Below, one piece after another: positions 1 through 21,900 of a stretch of 64,000 nt of DNA. Position 1 is the first letter of the stretch, and every line of letters starts with the position of its first letter. Position numbers and translations under genes: made by a program. This stretch comes from Dermatophagoides farinae (taxonomy: Eukaryota; Arthropoda; Arachnida; Sarcoptiformes; Pyroglyphidae), in the NCBI RefSeq assembly GCF_024713945.1, contig NC_134681.1:4007501-4071500 (forward strand), given 5' to 3'. The notes under the pieces were generated by a model. The model did not search any database, had not been told where the DNA came from, and saw nothing but the letters and a program-made list of their open reading frames with translations.

Positions 1-10108
<10,108 letters not shown>

Positions 10109-11450
10109 ATGATGGTGATGAGAAAGAAAAATTTCAATTCAATCATCATCAATGATCAACAGCAACAACAACAACATATTGATCATAAAATATTGATAAT
10201 GATGATCAATAAACAACATCAGCAACAGCAGCAGCAACAACAACAGCATTATGATCGTTGGCGTGAAAAATATAAAAAACCAATAAAAATCAATGAATAT
10301 GATGATAATGATATGAATTCATTAAGAAGAATAGAAAATATTGCCAAAATCAATAAAATGGCCAATAATCATCAAATATCAAATAATTCTGTGATAATTA
10401 ATAATAATAAATGTTTTTATAATACATGTGATGATGATAATCATAGATGGACAATGTTGAAAAGAAGATATGATAATAATGATCTCTATAATGGTGATGA
10501 TGATGATGGCCATGGCCATGATAATGCCATGATGATTATGTTTGAAAAAAGGCCTAAAAACAACAATGATGACCATCATCATCATTCTTATCAACAACAA
10601 CAGAAACATTGTTGTTTTTATAATAGAAAAAGATTTAAACATCAAAATAGTCGATTATCATTATCATTATCACCATCATCTTTATTATCAGTGATCATAT
10701 CAATATTGATGATGATGATTATAATATTGACAACAATTGGTGATTGTCGTCATTATATAGCACCAGGTCCATGTACTTGGACACATGTTATGATGTCCAA
10801 TAATAATCAACAATTATCTCGTGATAGCCGTCTTAAGTCATCATCAGCATCATTATCAACCCTTTCATCATCATCATCATCATCATCAACATTGACAATG
10901 AATGAGCTGAGTCATCATCATAATCATCATTCATCTTCATCATTATCATCATCAACATCGGAAACATTATCATCATCAAATGATTTTGATGTTTCATTAC
11001 GTTGTTCTGTACCAATATTAACGCCTTATACATTGAATATATCACTTATTGATCCAATACATACTGTACGTTTAATGATTCAATGTTTTGGTACAAATAA
11101 TGGTATTGGTGGTGGTAGTAATGTTGGTGTCAATAGTGAAGGTATACATCATCTTCAACCAATATTTCAATTTGATGATCCACATTCATCATCGATCAAT
11201 AGACAATCGATATTTCCACAACAGCAACAATCATTATATCAACGTTCAACATTATTACGCACTAGTAATATTGGTCATCATCATCAACAACAACCATTTG
11301 AACATTTACATTCATTACAATCATTACAGATTGATGATTGTCTATTCGATCGTATACCAACCGATACATTTCGTGGCCTATCATCATTGAAAAATCTCAC
11401 GATTCGTCGTGCATCATCATCATCAACGTCAACAAGCAACATTCATGATG

Positions 11451-11498
<48 letters not shown>

Positions 11499-12406
11499 GT
11501 GATCAATCATCATCATCAAGATTAAATGATGAAAGTCTTTTAGTTGAACCGTATTCATTTCGTCATGTTGAATCAACGGTTGAACATTTAGATTTAAGCC
11601 AAAATCATATTGAATCATTACCAAATGATTTATTCTGTCCATTTTTAACATTACATACATTGAATCTATCATATAATCATTTGATAAATTTAGCCAGTTT
11701 TGGTCTTATAGATCCAGCAACTGGACGTCTTTGTTTACAAGAATTACATCATTTAGATTTATCTAATAACCGATTGGAATTTGTACCAGAAACAAGTGGT
11801 GTGGCTGCATTGAAAAATCTACAACATTTAAATCTATCTGCTAATCATATAACGGAGATTACTGAATTAGCTTTTTCTGCATTACGTCGTTTACATGTAT
11901 TGGATTTATCTGGAAATCGTTTACGTACATTACCTGGTCGTATGTTTCGTGATTCGGATGAATTGCGTGAATTACATTTAGCAAATAATGGCCTTATTGA
12001 ATTGCCAATCGGTCTATTTCAAGGCCTTTCAAAATTACAAGTATTAAATGTTGCCGGCAATCAAATAACATCGGATACATTGACATCAGATACATTTGCC
12101 GATCTAATACGTGTTATTGTATTGGATATTTCTGGTAACAATCTACGACGTTTACCAGCATCAACATTTCAGAATCAATATTCATTACAAGTGCTTTCAT
12201 TAGAATATAATGAATTGGAAACAATTGACGAAGGAGCCTTTTCAACATTATATAATCTACATAAACTTAAATTGGCTGGAAATCGTTTTCGTCATCTACC
12301 GGAATCAATATTATCCGGATTATTTGTATTACAGCAGCTATTATTATCACATAATCAATTGGAACATGTGCATGAAGATGCATTTAAAAATTGTAGCAAT
12401 TTACAG
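10109..12406 (+). CDS. Tollo: Toll receptor (Toll-6/7/8/18w type), coding exon 1: N-terminus, signal segment, first leucine-rich repeats
   Basis: First coding exon of a single-pass Toll receptor, residues 1-766 of about 2240. The frame opens after a stop at 10076, and 10109 is the first ATG. Residues 1-185 are low-complexity (Gln, Asn, Asp, His, Met). A hydrophobic segment at about 192-210, ending just before Asp-Cys, looks like a signal peptide, so the true start may be downstream or the leader may be unusual. Ser-rich and Asn-rich stretches follow, then typical extracellular leucine-rich repeats from about residue 390 (LDLSQNHIESLP, LDLSNNRLEFVP, LDLSGNRLRTLP and similar). The exon ends in phase 0 at a GT donor at 12407, splitting one repeat. 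The Tollo, Toll-6, Toll-7 and 18-wheeler paralogs cannot be separated by eye. Confidence 0.9.
11453..11497 (+). repeat. (AAT)15 microsatellite inside Toll exon 1
   Basis: A pure AAT run read in frame as 15 consecutive Asn residues, within a Ser/Asn/Asp-rich insertion between the first leucine-rich repeat and the next ones. Pure trinucleotide runs in coding DNA tend to vary in length between individuals. Confidence 0.95.
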
Positions 12407-12831
12407 GTTAGTTATTGGATTTTTGTTTGATATTTTTTTTTCTTCTCATTTATTTTCAATAATGCAAATGAGATGCATGAACCAGTAATGCCTTTCACAT
12501 ATACATACACACATACACAAACAAAAACACACATTGGCTTGTGTCACATGATGATAATGATGGCGAATTCTAATTAATTAATCTTAATTATAATTAATTG
12601 GTTTTTTTTTCTTCATTCAACAAATCACATTGCACATTACACACACACATTATATACAGAGGCATCAAATGTGTCGATTTCGCCATATGTGAGAAAAAAA
12701 AAGAAAGAAAAAAAATCTCAATTTTCGCAATATTAACATTATGCATTTCATTAATTTTTTTTCTTTTTCTTTCTTTTTTTTTTGTTTCATTTTTTTTCCA
12801 CATCGACAATGAATATATTCTTCATGTATAG
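12407..12831 (+). other. Intron of the Toll gene (425 bp)
   Basis: GT at 12407-12408 and AG at 12830-12831 bound an A/T-rich stretch with stops in the Toll frame. Removing it joins the phase-0 end of exon 1 to the leucine-rich motif NLDLSANRLTTIP and restores the repeat, which supports the boundaries. Short open frames on both strands inside it are not convincing as genes. Confidence 0.9.
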
Positions 12832-15800
12832 AATCTTGATTTATCTGCCAATCGTTTGACAACAATTCCCATGGCATTACGTTCATTGAATAAATTGAAT
12901 CAATTGAATCTTTCGGGAAATAAATTCACAACATGGACCGATTCAACGGCATTGATTGGTACGAAAATTAAAAAATTAGATCTAAGCGATAATTATCTGG
13001 TCAATATAACCAGAAATGCATTACGACCGATTATGTCTACATTACAACAATTATATCTTGGCGGTAATCGTCTACGGCAATTGGATAAAGATACATTCAT
13101 TGATCTACGTCAATCGTTACGTGTATTACGTTTAGATCGTAATGAATTCAATGATATTATTTCGGCTACAACATTTGCAACGATAAAACAATTGGAACGT
13201 TTACAAATATTTAATATTAGTCAGAACAAAATTCAACGTTTTGATTATTCAATCATACCAAATGGTCTAATTGTATTGGATATATCGGCAAATCGTTTAG
13301 AAACATTGGGCAATTATTTTGAACGTGATTTACAATTACGTTTAGAACAATTAGATGTTAATGGTAATCAATTGAAAGAAATCCAAGCAACATCCATACC
13401 AAATTCAATACGTGTACTGAATTTACGGCAAAATCGTTTGGAAAAAATTGATCAATTTGCATTTGTTGCCAAACATAATATCACCTTTGTTGATTTGCGT
13501 AATAATTCTTTACGCCGTATTGATAATAATGCATTCCGTTTGGGTGTCCAAAGACCAACAAATGGTTATTTTCAATTTGGATCATCCACATCATTACCGT
13601 TATCGATTTCACAAATAACCAGTATTGATAAAGATGATGAACAAGAATCAACCAATGAAAATATGATGAACGTTAAAAATCTACCATCACCAATATTTTT
13701 AATATCCAGTAATCCATATTATTGTGATTGTACTATGGAATGGTTACAACGTGTTAATCAATTAGTTGGTGGTGTAACCGGTTCTGGTACTATTTCAACA
13801 TATCCAAGAATTGGTGATCTTGATCAAGTGGAATGTGAATTACCATTTTCACGTCAATCATTGTTATTGTCTATTAATAATAAATCAACAACAACAACAA
13901 CAAATGACCAACAACAACAACAATCGTCACAAGCAGCCACAATAACAAAAACGACAACATTGTCAAATAATTTAAAATCAAATAATTTTGTACCATTATT
14001 ACAAGCAAATTCATCAAATTTCTTATGCCGTTATCGTTCACATTGTTTTGCATTATGTCATTGTTGTGAATTTGATGCATGTGATTGTGAAATGATGTGT
14101 CCAGAGAATTGTACCTGTTATTATGATCAAACATGGAATACGAATATTGTCGATTGTAGTGGTGGCCGTTATCGTCAGGTACCATTACGTATACCGATGG
14201 ATGTAACATCATTATATCTAGATGGTAATCATCTACAATCATTGAATGCACATACATTTATTGGCCGTAAAAATTTACGCATATTACATTTGAATCATTC
14301 AATGGTTGAGACCATTTCAAATCGTAGTTTTAATGGTTTAGTTTATCTGGAAGAATTACATCTTGAAAATAATCTACTGACAGCATTATATGGTTATGAA
14401 TTTGAAAGTTTACATTATTTAACAACATTGAATCTACAAAATAATCGTCTGTCATTTATTAATGATAAAACATTTCATCCATTACGTTCATTACAAACAT
14501 TACGTATTGATCATAATCATTTACAAACATTTGGTCAATGGTTTGTTATGGACACTAATGCAGCATCGATGACAATAGCGGCCAATACACCACATTCACA
14601 TCATCATATTCTTCATCATCATCATCATCAGAATAAATTATCCATACGTATAGGTGAAAATCCATGGTCATGTCAATGTTCATCATTGGCAATAATGTAT
14701 GAAACATTATGGCAATTAAGACAACGAATATCGGTTGCTGATTATCAAGAAATACGTTGCCAACCAAATGGTTCAACATTATTCGTAGGTGGCGCAGCTA
14801 ATCATCTGATTGATAAATGTAATCTTACCAGACAATATTATCTAATGTTGAATACACCAACAACATCTATTAGTTCATTGAATCCATTGATTGAACAATC
14901 ATCATCATCTATAAATCAACATCAAGATTATTATCCGGCAACAGCCAAACCACCAACACCAGATCCATCAGCAGAACAGCCACCATCACAACAATCAACA
15001 CAATCACCACATCAATCATCAGTACCTGGTTTATATCCACAGAATGCAAATAATTTTGATTCAATTTATCATCATCAATCAAGACCAATGAATCCGATTA
15101 CGAACAACAACAACAACAACAACAATAATAATAATAATAATGATAATTCTCGTGTATCGATGCCAATCATTCCAAATGTAAATGATGATGAAAATGATCC
15201 AGATCTCACATATCAACCAATAGATTTATTGGGTGGTATACGACCAAAATTGCTGCCATCACCAGTAATGCCACCACCACCACCATTACAGAATCATTCT
15301 TCATATTGGCCATCTGGTTCACATTTTTCTATACCATCATCATCGTCGCCGTCATCGTCATCGATGCCATTCAATTCATCATCATGGTTTTGGATCATAT
15401 TATTACCATCGATATTGTTGATATTATGTATGTCTATTTTTCTTACAATTCGTTTTAAACAAGATATACAATTATGGTTCTATGGCCGTTATGGTATACG
15501 TTTATTTGAGTCCGGTTTCTGTTTCGGTTCTAATGATAGTTCATCCGGTTCATCGGGTTCCGGTTCAGTTGGTTCCTCAAGATCACGTAGACGTGCCGGC
15601 CGTAATGGATTTAATGATACTTATGTTCGTGATAGTGAAAAATTATTCGATGCATTTGTCATCTATGCACGACAAGATGAATCGTTTGTTGCACAACAAT
15701 TGGCAGCTGAATTAGAATGTGGTTATCCACCATATCGTTTATGTTTACGTTATCGTGATTTACCAGCTCCGACAAATGTTGATTCATTAACAGCATCACC

Positions 15801-17256
15801 AGGTTCCGGCACAACAATGGGTGTAATGACAACAAAAGATCATGGCTATGCATTTGATGCTGTTACACAAGCAATTGAATGTTCACGAAGAACATTAGTC
15901 GTTATTTCTGAACAATTTTTACAATCTGAATGGTGTAAATTTGAATTGAAAGCAGCACATCAAGAAACATTGACCAGTTGTAAAACACATCGATTAATTG
16001 TAGTGGTTGTACCAACACAAACACAGCAGCAACAACAACAACAACAACATCTTCATCAACAACAACAACCATTAGTCAGTTCACCGATGACATCGCCAAC
16101 ATTATCATCACAAATGCCAATGAATAATAATAATAATAATAATAATAATTCACCAGCCAAACAGGCAGAATCATTATTACAACGTTTAGATTCAGAAACA
16201 AAAACCTGTATACGTGGTGTAACAATATTAACATGGCAAGAACGTCGTTTTTGGGAAAAATTACGTTTTGCAATGCCAGCTAATTCTACGATTGGTGGTG
16301 CTGCTGGTAGCGGAAATGGTGGCAGTGGATCATCATCAGGCGTAATTGGATCAATGAGTGGTGCACTTGGATCATTAACATTTGGTAATAATAATAATAA
16401 TAATAATTCCACCATTGGTAGACATCAATCAAATCATCATGGACCTGTTGTTGATAATTTAAAAGGACGTACATCAACAGTTGTTGTTACAAATTGTGGT
16501 GGTATTGGTGGCGGCGCTAGTGGTGGCTATCCAACATTAGCACCATCATCATTAAGTTCATCATCATCATTGGCACGTAGTTCAGTTTTATATGATTCAA
16601 CGATAATGTCCAATAATAATCAACATCAACAACAGCAGCCAATATATCAACATCATTATCATTATGCACAATTGCCACCATCAATGACAACAAATCAATC
16701 TGATCGATCAATTAATCAATCAACAATGTCATTACATAAATTGGGCAAAACAAATAATAATAATAATAATGATAATAATAATCAATCAAGCCCTATTGTA
16801 AGGAATCCATTTAGTACAAAACCATTACCACCACCACCAAATCAGCCATTACCACCATTACCATTGGTAAATAATAATTCAACAACAGCATCGACAACAA
16901 CAACAACATCAGCATATAATTCTTCATTACAAAGTCCAATACTTCATTCACAAAATCAACATCCACATCATTATCATCAACAATCATCAATTGATCATCA
17001 TAATAATAATCAGCAGCTACAGCAACAACAACAGGCACCACCACCATATGTAGAATATACTAATCAACAACAGCAGCAGCAGCAACAATCAATTATAATG
17101 GATCATCATTTACAGCAACAATTTATTATTGAATCAAATCCAGATAGTACAAATCATCATCATCAACAACAACAACAAACAATGTTGAATCTACATGGTA
17201 GACGTCCACAGCAACAATCATATTATATGACACATCGTACAAGGGCACCATTATAA
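12832..17256 (+). CDS. Tollo: Toll receptor (Toll-6/7/8/18w type), coding exon 2: ectodomain, membrane segment, TIR domain, tail
   Basis: Residues 767-2240, ending at TAA 17254-17256. Leucine-rich repeats continue to about residue 1010. A Cys-rich flank starts with YCDC (Cys1064, Cys1066), and a dense cluster around 1170-1203 (HCFALCHCCEFDACDCEMMC, then CPENCTC) is closely like Drosophila Tollo/18-wheeler and marks the long, multiple-cysteine-cluster Tolls. A second repeat block follows, then a C-terminal flank (NPWSCQC, near 1380), a Pro/Ser/Asn-rich stalk, a membrane segment at about 1618-1641 and a TIR domain at 1703-1915. TIR boxes are visible: KLFDAFVIYARQDE, RYRDLP, FWEKLRFAMP. The TIR spans about 213 residues against the usual 140-150, because of insertions at 1745-1770 and 1828-1884. 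A tail of about 325 Gln/Asn/His/Pro/Gly-rich residues follows. Expected role: cell-surface receptor in epithelial patterning or immunity. Confidence 0.95.
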   Translation, partial: NLDLSANRLTTIPMALRSLNKLNQLNLSGNKFTTWTDSTALIGTKIKKLDLSDNYLVNITRNALRPIMSTLQQLYLGGNRLRQLDKDTFIDLRQSLRVLRLDRNEFNDIISATTFATIKQLERLQIFNISQNKIQRFDYSIIPNGLIVLDISANRLETLGNYFERDLQLRLEQLDVNGNQLKEIQATSIPNSIRVLNLRQNRLEKIDQFAFVAKHNITFVDLRNNSLRRIDNNAFRLGVQRPTNGYFQFGSSTSLPLSISQITSIDKDDEQESTNENMMNVKNLPSPIFLISSNPYYCDCTMEWLQRVNQLVGGVTGSGTISTYPRIGDLDQVECELPFSRQSLLLSINNKSTTTTTNDQQQQQSSQAATITKTTTLSNNLKSNNFVPLLQANSSNFLCRYRSHCFALCHCCEFDACDCEMMCPENCTCYYDQTWNTNIVDCSGGRYRQVPLRIPMDVTSLYLDGNHLQSLNAHTFIGRKNLRILHLNHSMVETISNRSFNGLVYLEELHLENNLLTALYGYEFESLHYLTTLNLQNNRLSFINDKTFHPLRSLQTLRIDHNHLQTFGQWFVMDTNAASMTIAANTPHSHHHILHHHHHQNKLSIRIGENPWSCQCSSLAIMYETLWQLRQRISVADYQEIRCQPNGSTLFVGGAANHLIDKCNLTRQYYLMLNTPTTSISSLNPLIEQSSSSINQHQDYYPATAKPPTPDPSAEQPPSQQSTQSPHQSSVPGLYPQNANNFDSIYHHQSRPMNPITNNNNNNNNNNNNNDNSRVSMPIIPNVNDDENDPDLTYQPIDLLGGIRPKLLPSPVMPPPPPLQNHSSYWPSGSHFSIPSSSSPSSSSMPFNSSSWFWIILLPSILLILCMSIFLTIRFKQDIQLWFYGRYGIRLFESGFCFGSNDSSSGSSGSGSVGSSRSRRRAGRNGFNDTYVRDSEKLFDAFVIYARQDESFVAQQLAAELECGYPPYRLCLRYRDLPAPTNVDSLTASPGSGTTMGVMTTKDHGYAFDAVTQAIECSRRTLVVISEQFLQSEWCKFELKAAHQETLTSCKTHRLIVVVVPTQTQQQQQQQQHLHQQQQPLVSSPMTSPTLSSQMPMNNNNNNNNNSPAKQAESLLQRLDSETKTCIRGVTILTWQERRFWEKLRFAMPANSTIGGAAGSGNGGSGSSSGVIGSMSGALGSLTFGNNNNNNNSTIGRHQSNHHGPVVDNLKGRTSTVVVTNCGGIGGGASGGYPTLAPSSLSSSSSLARSSVLYDSTIMSNNNQHQQQQPIYQHHYHYAQLPPSMTTNQSDRSINQSTMSLHKLGKTNNNNNNDNNNQSSPIVRNPFSTKPLPPPPNQPLPPLPLVNNNSTTASTTTTTSAYNSSLQSPILHSQNQHPHHYHQQSSIDHHNNNQQLQQQQQAPPPYVEYTNQQQQQQQQSIIMDHHLQQQFIIESNPDSTNHHHQQQQQTMLNLHGRRPQQQSYYMTHRTRAPL

Positions 17257-18270: not shown

Positions 18271-18969
18271 TTAACAAGCAACATTATACCACCAATCACA
18301 AACACCATTTTTGGAATTAAAAACAGTACCAATTGGACAAAGAAATGAATGCATTTGGCCATTTTGACAAATATGCCATACTTGACAACCGGTTTCTTCA
18401 TCAGCATAAACACCATCGGATCTTTTATCACCACATTCAAATGATGTTTTCGGTATTGTACTCAATGATGCTTTTGTTGATTGATGTTGATGATGCATTA
18501 ATGTTGCACCGGCAATACCTATTGGTTTACGTGATTTTGTTGATTTTTTCGGCAATTTATCATTATCATTTCTTGATGATGGTTGCTGTTGTTGTTGATG
18601 ATTACGATGACGGCCAGTTGATGATGGTATTAATGAATTATGATTCTGATGGCTATTAATTGTTTCCGATGTTTCAATCATATCATCATATCGTTGTTGT
18701 TGTTGTTGTCCATCATTGTAATTGATATTATCATCTTCATCTGAATAATCATCATCATTATCATCAATATTTGGATGATTTTTACCAGTCAATTTATTAT
18801 TACGTAATGTTTGTTGAATTCTAATCGTTGATGAGTGGTCCCAATTCATTCGATTTGATAATGTTGATGATTGATGATTATTATTATTACGACGACGTTG
18901 TGATTTTTTTGATTTTTGACGTTTTCTCATTGTATTGTTTTGACGATTTCTTGTACGTCGTGTTTTATT
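18271..18969 (-). CDS. CPAP1-like chitin-binding protein, last exon with the CBM14 domain
   Basis: Terminal exon, residues 877-1108 of the predicted protein, stop TAA at 18273-18271. Residues up to about 1050 are basic and then Asn/Gln/Asp/His-rich linker. The end is a single peritrophin-A (CBM14) chitin-binding domain with cysteines at 1055, 1071, 1077, 1087, 1100 and 1108, spacing C-x15-C-x5-C-x9-C-x12-C-x7-C. The motifs GVYADEETGCQVWHIC, SFLCPIGTVFN and CDWWYNVAC are typical of arthropod CPAP1 cuticle proteins, and the chain stops at the sixth cysteine. The likely role is binding chitin in cuticle or tracheal matrix outside the cell. The acceptor AG at 18971-18970 is the first AG after a CTAAT-like branch site and a T-rich tract, and gives phase 0, matching the upstream donor. 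An ATG at 18930 is in frame, but a start there would leave no signal peptide. Confidence 0.85.
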   Translation of the reverse strand, partial: NKTRRTRNRQNNTMRKRQKSKKSQRRRNNNNHQSSTLSNRMNWDHSSTIRIQQTLRNNKLTGKNHPNIDDNDDDYSDEDDNINYNDGQQQQQRYDDMIETSETINSHQNHNSLIPSSTGRHRNHQQQQQPSSRNDNDKLPKKSTKSRKPIGIAGATLMHHQHQSTKASLSTIPKTSFECGDKRSDGVYADEETGCQVWHICQNGQMHSFLCPIGTVFNSKNGVCDWWYNVAC

Positions 18970-21900
18970 CTTTTTTTTTGATAATTTTTTTTCGCGGGAA
19001 AAATTTCGATAAAATGAAAAAAAGAAAAAAAACAGAAAAATTATTAGCCAGAATAAATGAATGGGAAATTTTTTTCATTTAAAATTCTATAGGATTACAT
19101 CAACAACAATTGCAACGAAAATTGTAAAGAATTTAGCTTCTCATTAAACAGACGATGACAATGATAATAGGATGATTTGCTGATAAATTACTGTGTCTTT
19201 TTCTCACATTTCAAATTGAAAGAAATTTTTTTTTTTGCAAAATGAACAAAAAAAAATTAAATGAATCAAATGTCGAATGACAAAAGACAACACAAAAGTT
19301 TAAATTGTTTAGAATAAAAAAAATCTTGAAATTTTGTCTTTGTAAAGTTTCCACATTTGAAACAACAATATTCTCGTTACGAAAAAAAAAAAATTCCAAA
19401 TGACAAATTCTGATTCATGATTCTTTCTACAATCCAAAATGATGATAGACCATTTCTCTTTTATCTTCTGTATGCGTGTAATTGCAATTCTTTCATTTTT
19501 TTTCATACAATAGAAAATCTATATGCGTTAAATTGCTGTTGTGTAATATACTAAACTGCAACAATAATAACCACCGATGATCATCAAGATGATGATGATG
19601 ATGATGATGATGACAGTTGTAATAATCGGTCTAAATTCAAAGCTTAAGATTGTTTTTTTTTCGCTTTTGAAACATAAAGAGAGATGAAGAGAGAGTTAGA
19701 GCAAAAATTCCTGAAATGAATGGAATCAAACAAATGAATGATACTGACAATAAACCGAATAATATAAAGGGAGATGGAACAAACGAAAAGATTTTTATTC
19801 TTTTTTTTTCGTTTGGCCAGAAATAAAAACGATAAAGAAGAACAGGACCATCAATTATCAAATCAAATCGATTAATAACGAACATCCCAAATATAGCACA
19901 CACATGCACACACACAAATTTTGTTGGAAAAAAACGAGACACCACCACCACCATCAACCCAACCATTCTTTTTTTTCAATCTCATTCAACTTGAACATTG
20001 AAAAAACACCCACCAATACAACCATCATCATCACCACCACCACCACCACTAAAAAACAATATAAATGAGAGAGAGAGAGAGAGACAGAGAAGCAAAAATA
20101 AAAAACACAATCTTTTATCATTCTTTCACATACACACACACACAGACACACAATTCACAATCATCATCATCTCCATTATTTCCTTTTCCAGTTGTTAGAA
20201 TGTTATGGAATGTTCAACCAACCAGCCAACCAACCAACCAACCAACCAACCATCCGACCGACCGACGAACCAGCTCAATAACCAAAACGAGAGAAAAAAG
20301 CAATTTTTTTTCGTCTTGTTCTCTTTTTGATCTCGACAAAACGAAACGAAATATATAGATCGACTGATTTTAAGTGGGCACTAATTGGTACAGTTTTTTT
20401 TTTTTTTTTTTTGGTTCGACAACATCTTTCATCGCACATTGCTATTATTTTTTTCGGAGCCATCATTTTGCACCAAGAAAAGAAAAAAAAACTTAACTTA
20501 AATGATGATGATGATAACGACATTGATATCATTGTAATGAAACAAAAACAAAAAAACAAAAAAGAAAAAAACGGGCATAATACAAAAATGAAAAAAATCG
20601 TTTTTTTTTGTTGGCTGTTGTCAAGATAAAAAAAAAATAAAGTAAAGTAAAATAGAAATAGAAAAGAGAATCAAGAGAACCTTATTTGCCATTATATTTT
20701 TTTTTGTTGTTGTCTCTCGATTCTGTTATCAAGATTATTACAAAGATGTATGGTAACTTCCTTCTGATAGATATTCTTTTCATTCTTTGTTTCCTTTTAT
20801 CATGCTATTCTTGTGTGTGTGTGTGTGTGTGTTTGGTACAGAAAGTTTAATTTCCGTTTTCTTGTATGTGTGTGTGTTATACATTGCCATTTTTGTTTTT
20901 ATCTTTTGTTTCGTTTCCATTTCAATCGAGCCGGATGACAAATCCAAAACAAAACAAAACGAAACAACAACAACAACAAAAAAATGTTTGACATTCATAT
21001 CATTGACTGATTATCATGATGATCATTTGACATTATCATTGTGGACAAACAAAACTGACCAATGGACCAAAAAAAAGAAAGAAATTCAACATTCTTGTGA
21101 TAAAAGTGTGGACAATTCTTTGAATTTTTTTTTTTAAACAAAAACATTTCAGCAACATATAATTTCGATTTGTTTTTTAATTTGTTCGGGTTATTATTTT
21201 ATTATTTATGATTTCATTTGAATTTTTCATTGATTATATTAATCAATTTTTTTTCTTAATTGCAAGCCATGAAAAAAAACATTCACATTCAAGTATAATT
21301 CAAATAATAATGAACAAACTATAGTTTGGTTGTGCTAGTGGTAGCATAATATGTAGTTTAGTGTTTTTTTCTGGCTTTTGTACACTTTTTTTTTTTTTTT
21401 TTTGGTTATCATCATCATCAGCATCATCAGTTTTCTTTGAAAAGATTTTTTTTCTGCTCATTTTTTTTTCATTTTCCAATTTTTATAGTGATCCATCATA
21501 ATTCAACACACACACACACACACACGAATAAAAAAGAAAAGAATGGCTATAGCCATACAGTGGAACAATGATGATGATGATGATGATGATGAGAAACACT
21601 CTTATTCTTTTCCATTGGTTCCAATGGCCTAGTCTGTATCTGTATAGTTCATGGCTATGTCTATTTTCTCAATCAATCACCGATTGGCGGCAACCAAGAC
21701 TTATTTCAGAAAAAAAAACTTGAACCGAAAAATGAGAATCGAAAGAAAAAAAAATCATAAAAGAGATACAGAGAGAGAGAGAGAGAGAGGGCAGAAAGGA
21801 AAAATTCTTTGGTTCATGGATTCTCTATTTCTATTTGAAACCTATCATCATCATCATCATTATTAAACATTGAATTTCTTTTCTTTTCTTTTTCATTATT

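Follow-up and report, generated by a model that had tools for sequence, protein, structure and literature searches.

An in-frame BB-loop insertion in the TIR domain of a Toll receptor from Dermatophagoides farinae

Within the 64,000 nucleotides of the medically important mite Dermatophagoides farinae that we analysed (contig NC_134681.1 of assembly GCF_024713945.1, positions 4,007,501 to 4,071,500; hereafter the window) lies a gene for a Toll receptor of 2240 residues in two exons, the joined model of which is free of internal stops. Judged from its sequence, the TIR domain of this receptor carries a real and apparently coding insertion in its BB loop, which is one of several loop expansions of the protein and may affect signalling. 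To the reading that we consider most likely we give about an even chance: disordered expansions weaken or shield assembly through the BB loop, the fold is kept and the demand on BB-loop signalling is relaxed. If the insertion truly blocks BB-loop contacts and the TIR core remains conserved, the gene would be a natural experiment on roles of long-Toll TIR domains beyond MyD88 signalling; if it is neutral, it would show the tolerance of a TIR contact loop. Positions are those of the window, and features of the receptor gene lie on the + strand. Residues are counted from the first in-frame Met at 10109, a start codon that is uncertain and on which the numbering depends. Searches of the genome refer to a single assembly of 62,435,336 bases in 22 contigs. 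A fragment of a group 2 allergen encoded there agrees with Der f 2 in 115/116 residues (260.5 bits), compared to scores of 236.8–238.7 bits for Der p 2, in keeping with the species.

Position and predicted disorder of the BB-loop insertion

The TIR domain spans 215 residues with both of its insertions counted (15637–16281). It was recognized by the profile PF01582 (42.5 bits, cut-off 21.3), by a match to the TIR domain of TLR2 in a phmmer search against solved structures (E = 2.8e-13) and by the TIR-like order of strands and helices in the structural model described below. The TLR2 match falls into two pieces with the break inside the BB insertion; the closest paralog in the genome aligned to the same domain in a single piece. 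Box 2 reads RYRDLP in the joined translation (residues 1739–1744, 15748–15765) and is directly followed by a segment of 26 residues (1745–1770, 15766–15843) as delimited by a four-sequence alignment, the alignment with the paralog and the predicted local distance difference test score (pLDDT). The gap in the paralog alignment covers 15775–15843. Thereafter the domain resumes, on alignment and model, with helix B, strand C and helix C (GYAFDAV...THR, 15844–15993; HGYAFDAV is encoded at 15841–15864) and later, by translation as well, with the helix D region, strand E and box 3 (FWEKLRFAMP, 16183–16278).

The initial annotation had placed an in-frame, exonic insertion at exactly these coordinates, and the open frame of 1474 codons together with the alignment bears this out. 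Its description as rich in Ser, Thr and Gly is likewise accurate (Thr 6, Ser 3, Gly 3: 12/26 residues). The size of about 26 residues holds for the segment; the net gain is smaller. Counted by hand on the four-sequence alignment, 32 residues separate the RD of box 2 from the aligned helix residue in this Toll versus 9 in the closest paralog (L002), 8 in a Toll-1-like gene (L001) and 8 in a MyD88-like gene (L004), the latter two labels being assigned from layout; human TLR2, measured on its own alignment, also has 8. The loop has thus gained 23–24 residues. The expansion is found in one of the four aligned TIR genes, a comparison that covers four of seven PF13676 matches and leaves out L021 and L022.

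A second insertion, which is larger and is absent from the initial annotation, was identified by paralog alignment, repeat search and model on the DD-loop side of the domain: 56 residues at 16012–16179 that start after strand D (LIVVVV), 51 of which are unaligned with the paralog. Two arrays, CAA x13 and AAT x9, lie inside it. The statement that the flanks of the BB insertion are intact therefore stands for the upstream side but not for the downstream side.

Structures of this TIR domain and, as a control, of the paralog TIR were predicted with AlphaFold2 on alignments of the same 4 sequences. For the domain studied here mean pLDDT was 62.6 and the predicted template modelling score 0.55, with strands and helices in TIR-like order. 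Model residues 41–70 (the BB insertion is 44–69) had pLDDT below 50 and lay between strand B and helix B of the model. Values below 50 were also obtained for residues 142–169 within the second insertion (126–181), the ends of which were modelled as helices. The control reached a mean of 69.9 and contained no run of three or more residues below 50. On these models the BB insertion is probably disordered between a retained strand and helix, and the TIR core probably still folds.

Coding status and origin of the segment

Several measures mark the BB segment as coding. Its codon log-odds amount to 0.716 bits per codon, which exceeds 86% of 419 coding windows (mean 0.448) and is reached by only 1 of 1228 windows from stretches of the window presumed noncoding (mean −0.675); the 419 coding windows, taken from three Toll genes and MyD88 after removal of the insertion, are also the set on which the score was trained. 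Both other forward frames of the segment contain stops. The G + C content is 42% as compared to 26% for the intron of the gene, and the longest T run is 2 versus 10.

We examined whether the segment could be an intron or be subject to alternative splicing. According to the initial annotation it has no GT–AG borders. This wording is too strong: within 15640–16100 there are 117 GT..AG pairs that would excise at least 70 of its 78 bases, and 55 of them preserve the frame, for example 15755–15838 (84 bases) and 15755–15871 (117 bases). The acceptor at 15871 has 10/17 pyrimidines and so equals that of the gene's own intron. What holds is that no convincing donor exists, as the best one able to excise the segment agrees with the consensus at 6/9 bases, compared to 8/9 for the gene's own intron, and the acceptor at 15838 has just 5/17 pyrimidines. 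Either splice would also cut the D of the box-2 RD along with LP, and 15755–15871 would additionally take the first part of helix B. Despite the acceptor at 15871 we therefore reject splicing, given the quality of the donors, the base composition and a coding score above the coding mean, and regard it as next to negligible in probability. Slightly more room, though still very little, is left for an assembly error or a rare allele: one assembly is the sole source of the sequence, but the segment is in frame, coding-like and present once in the genome, and the published consensus quality is 36.1, if that figure refers to the same assembly (PMC11074847).

Two possible origins were discarded. A 91-base query matched only itself in the genome, in a search that skips simple repeats, which argues against a mobile element or a duplication; and no tandem array was found at 15766–15843, whereas the second insertion has two.

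Possible consequences for TIR signalling

The importance of the BB loop for TIR contacts, on which the initial annotation had relied, agrees with published work (PMC10161769, PMC3634009, PMC7075850). The dimer interface of the TLR15 TIR domain is described as consisting of the BB, alphaC2 and DD regions, and one BB-loop mutant failed to dimerise (PMC10161769); by analogy, the present receptor may use the same BB/DD face. Box 2, common to Tolls, TLRs and MyD88, is given as RDxxPG, with HxRDFxxG for the group 3 that includes the Tolls (PMC7075850). Our sequence departs from RDxxPG in that RDLPAP is followed by the insertion: RD is kept and the Gly is displaced. The FW of box 3 is present (RRFWEKLRFAMP). 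Pro residues follow RD, and the insertion makes the counterpart of TLR2 P681 uncertain; the P681H exchange is cited as rendering TLR2 unable to recruit MyD88 (PMC3634009).

We propose that a long-Toll TIR domain acquired two probably disordered loop expansions, one in the BB loop and one after strand D, around a core that is conserved on alignment and predicted to fold still. The BB loop retains RD, with the Gly of the group 3 RDFxxG out of place. Since the Gly is displaced and both expansions sit on loops reported at the TLR TIR dimer face, BB-loop-mediated assembly and recruitment of MyD88 are expected to be weakened or shielded. The receptor would then act mainly via ectodomain and tail, in line with reports on several insect long-Toll functions, and the Toll-1-like gene, with its BB loop of ordinary length, would serve MyD88 signalling. 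We favour such a relaxed demand because of the displaced box-2 Gly, the TLR2 P681 results and data on insect receptors: the intracellular domain is described as dispensable for Toll-8 in myosin recruitment and for Toll-6 and Toll-7 in wiring (PMC9116419), and the airway immune role of Tollo is phenocopied by Ect4/SARM mutants but not by dMyd88 mutants (PMC3192845). Two further observations point in the same direction: the loop is of ordinary length in the other three aligned TIR genes and in TLR2, and the BB segment has a low pLDDT, versus a paralog control without any such run.

Several observations weigh against weakened or shielded assembly. Departures from RDxxPG are also seen in the paralog (RDLPVASG) and in Tollo as quoted in the initial annotation (RDFPVG), so that an altered box 2 is no peculiarity of the lengthened loop. 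The helix that follows the insertion is immediately preceded by a Gly (HGYAF), by which the turn might be closed, and flexibility of BB loops has been described (PMC7075850). P681A left the TLR2/1 and TLR2/2 responses partly standing (PMC3634009), and for Toll-2 the intracellular domain is in use (PMC9116419). The models, built from 4 sequences, are modest, and low pLDDT may partly reflect the scarcity of related sequences.

The foremost competing explanation, which we find plausible but clearly less probable, is neutrality: the protein abounds in low-complexity inserts, and the insertion would be one more loop expansion, lying away from the contacts and leaving TIR signalling normal. Alignment with the paralog yields 23 gaps of at least 10 residues, of which 19 are extra stretches in this Toll and 4 in the paralog; 3 of the 19 fall in the TIR domain. 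With so many of the gaps being extra residues here, expansion is typical of the whole protein rather than particular to the BB loop. In a second Toll of this genome, the Toll-1-like gene (L001/L032, C3:6008846-6009190, − strand), the AB loop of the TIR domain is expanded by about 53 residues. As a control we inspected Ras-domain matches in the genome. Of the 81 free of stop codons, 4 surpass the stretch of the model that they match by 15 residues or more; 31 of 112 matches had been dropped for stop codons, and some of those kept may contain in-frame introns. Loop expansions thus exist elsewhere in the genome and are uncommon in the very conserved Ras domain. Neutrality is made less attractive by the location of the BB insertion at a contact loop, with the conserved Gly displaced, and by the rarity of the Ras expansions (4 in 6732 model positions), although Ras is very conserved and the sample is biased against long inserts, as local matching breaks at these in the same way as for our TIR domain.

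The insertion may also have brought a gain of function, in which a disordered, phosphorylatable lid gates assembly or brings in a new partner; we consider this improbable. S-P sites occur at residue 1755 in the BB insertion and at 1850, 1854 and 1873 in the second one, but short motifs of this kind arise by chance alone. Unusual BB loops have been described elsewhere: the extended loop of the TEP1 TIR folds into the active site (PMC13174449), the protruding loop of TLR15 is proposed to bind an adaptor (PMC10161769) and a review ties the longer BB loop of TLR4 to the recruitment of two adaptors (PMC12756155). Hardly more probable, in our estimate, is that with the BB and DD loops both lengthened and disordered, canonical TIR stacking is off or conditional, for example on phosphorylation, and the domain is a scaffold read by a different partner. 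A change or switch of partners through the BB insertion, as raised in the initial annotation, is at most a possibility.

Decay of the TIR domain was rejected. Identity between this Toll and the paralog is 76/140 in the TIR domain, 231/576 in the main block of leucine-rich repeats (LRRs) and 41/50 in a cysteine block; the TIR value lies above the one for the main LRR block, so the TIR core does not decay more quickly than other parts of the protein.

Extensions of the BB loop are already in print for other TIR proteins, and the receptor described here is a true but modest variant. TLR15 also has a protruding BB loop, but one that results from an extended conformation of residues 744–751 and not from a long insertion (PMC10161769). 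The TIR-like domain of TEP1 (DUF4062) shares the extended loop, yet it belongs to another family, is an NADase and includes a helix within that loop (PMC13174449). For the staphylococcal TIR-like proteins SaTlp1 and SaTlp2 a BB-loop extension or insertion is reported; these proteins are bacterial and lack box 3, and their insertion is modelled as helical (PMC4260764). We found no description of a BB-loop insertion in an arthropod Toll in the parts of the open-access literature that a search by set phrases brought up. Compared with Tollo, the BB stretch is about 24 residues longer than the RDFPVGAYIADTI quoted in the initial annotation, and the second insertion after strand D comes in addition.

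Gene layout and other TIR genes of the genome

Exon 1 (10109–12406, within the open frame 10079–12430) encodes the N-terminal region and many LRRs (LRR_8, E = 7.7e-51). An intron inferred from the joined exon model and splice-site scoring follows at 12407–12831 (CAG/GTTAGT ... TATAG/AA, 26% G + C). Exon 2 (12832–17256), the 1474-codon open frame with LRR_8 and TIR matches, contributes further LRRs, cysteine clusters, a transmembrane stretch, the TIR domain and a Q/N/H-rich tail. Both LRRs and TIR were detected by Pfam, and the order in the protein is LRR, cysteine block, LRR, cysteine block, transmembrane stretch, TIR and tail. A regular expression counted 27 LRR motifs in this gene; the closest paralog gave 26, and the Toll-1-like gene, of which the last exon alone was counted, gave 13. 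Multi-cysteine-cluster Tolls are reported to share this domain order, and the number of LRRs to suggest the long-Toll class (PMC4833078, PMC6013529). The layout, with numerous LRRs and with multiple cysteine clusters in blocks that flank the second LRR run, suggests that the product is a Loto-like long Toll of the multi-cysteine-cluster type (mccTLR). Its identification as a Toll of the long kind in the initial annotation is thus upheld by LRRs, cysteine clusters, transmembrane stretch and TIR. The arthropod Loto members Toll-6, Toll-7, Toll-8/Tollo and 18-wheeler share many LRRs, cysteine-rich blocks around the second LRR run, a transmembrane stretch, the TIR domain and a long tail, where kinship to the named fly Tolls is judged by layout and not by a tree.

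TIR profile searches scored the best candidates only, hence the counts are lower bounds. At least four PF01582 matches exceeded the cut-off, namely L001, L002, the present gene and L004; at least seven matches to PF13676 were obtained, five of them above the cut-off; and at least three Toll genes were found. The paralog (L002/L031, C5:2908231) has the same architecture as this Toll, with a BB stretch of 9 residues and no insertion after strand D. L023, below the PF13676 cut-off, bears an ERLEAG pattern, which is given for SARM1 (PMC7075850). Outside the genome, pattern searches for relatives returned 31 matches in genome contigs and 30 in viral contigs, none of which was confirmed. A short TIR_2 match over the cut-off, L021 (L034, C1:1655038-1655172, − strand), adjoins a 433-codon frame of unassigned kind.

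The receptor tail contains a PPPY motif at 17038–17049, for which the same regular expression gave no match in the paralog. The motif is of the PPxY type, a ligand of WW domains. Downstream of the gene, an open frame on the − strand (18271–19074) ends in a chitin-binding Peritrophin-A domain (CBM_14, E = 6.2e-14).

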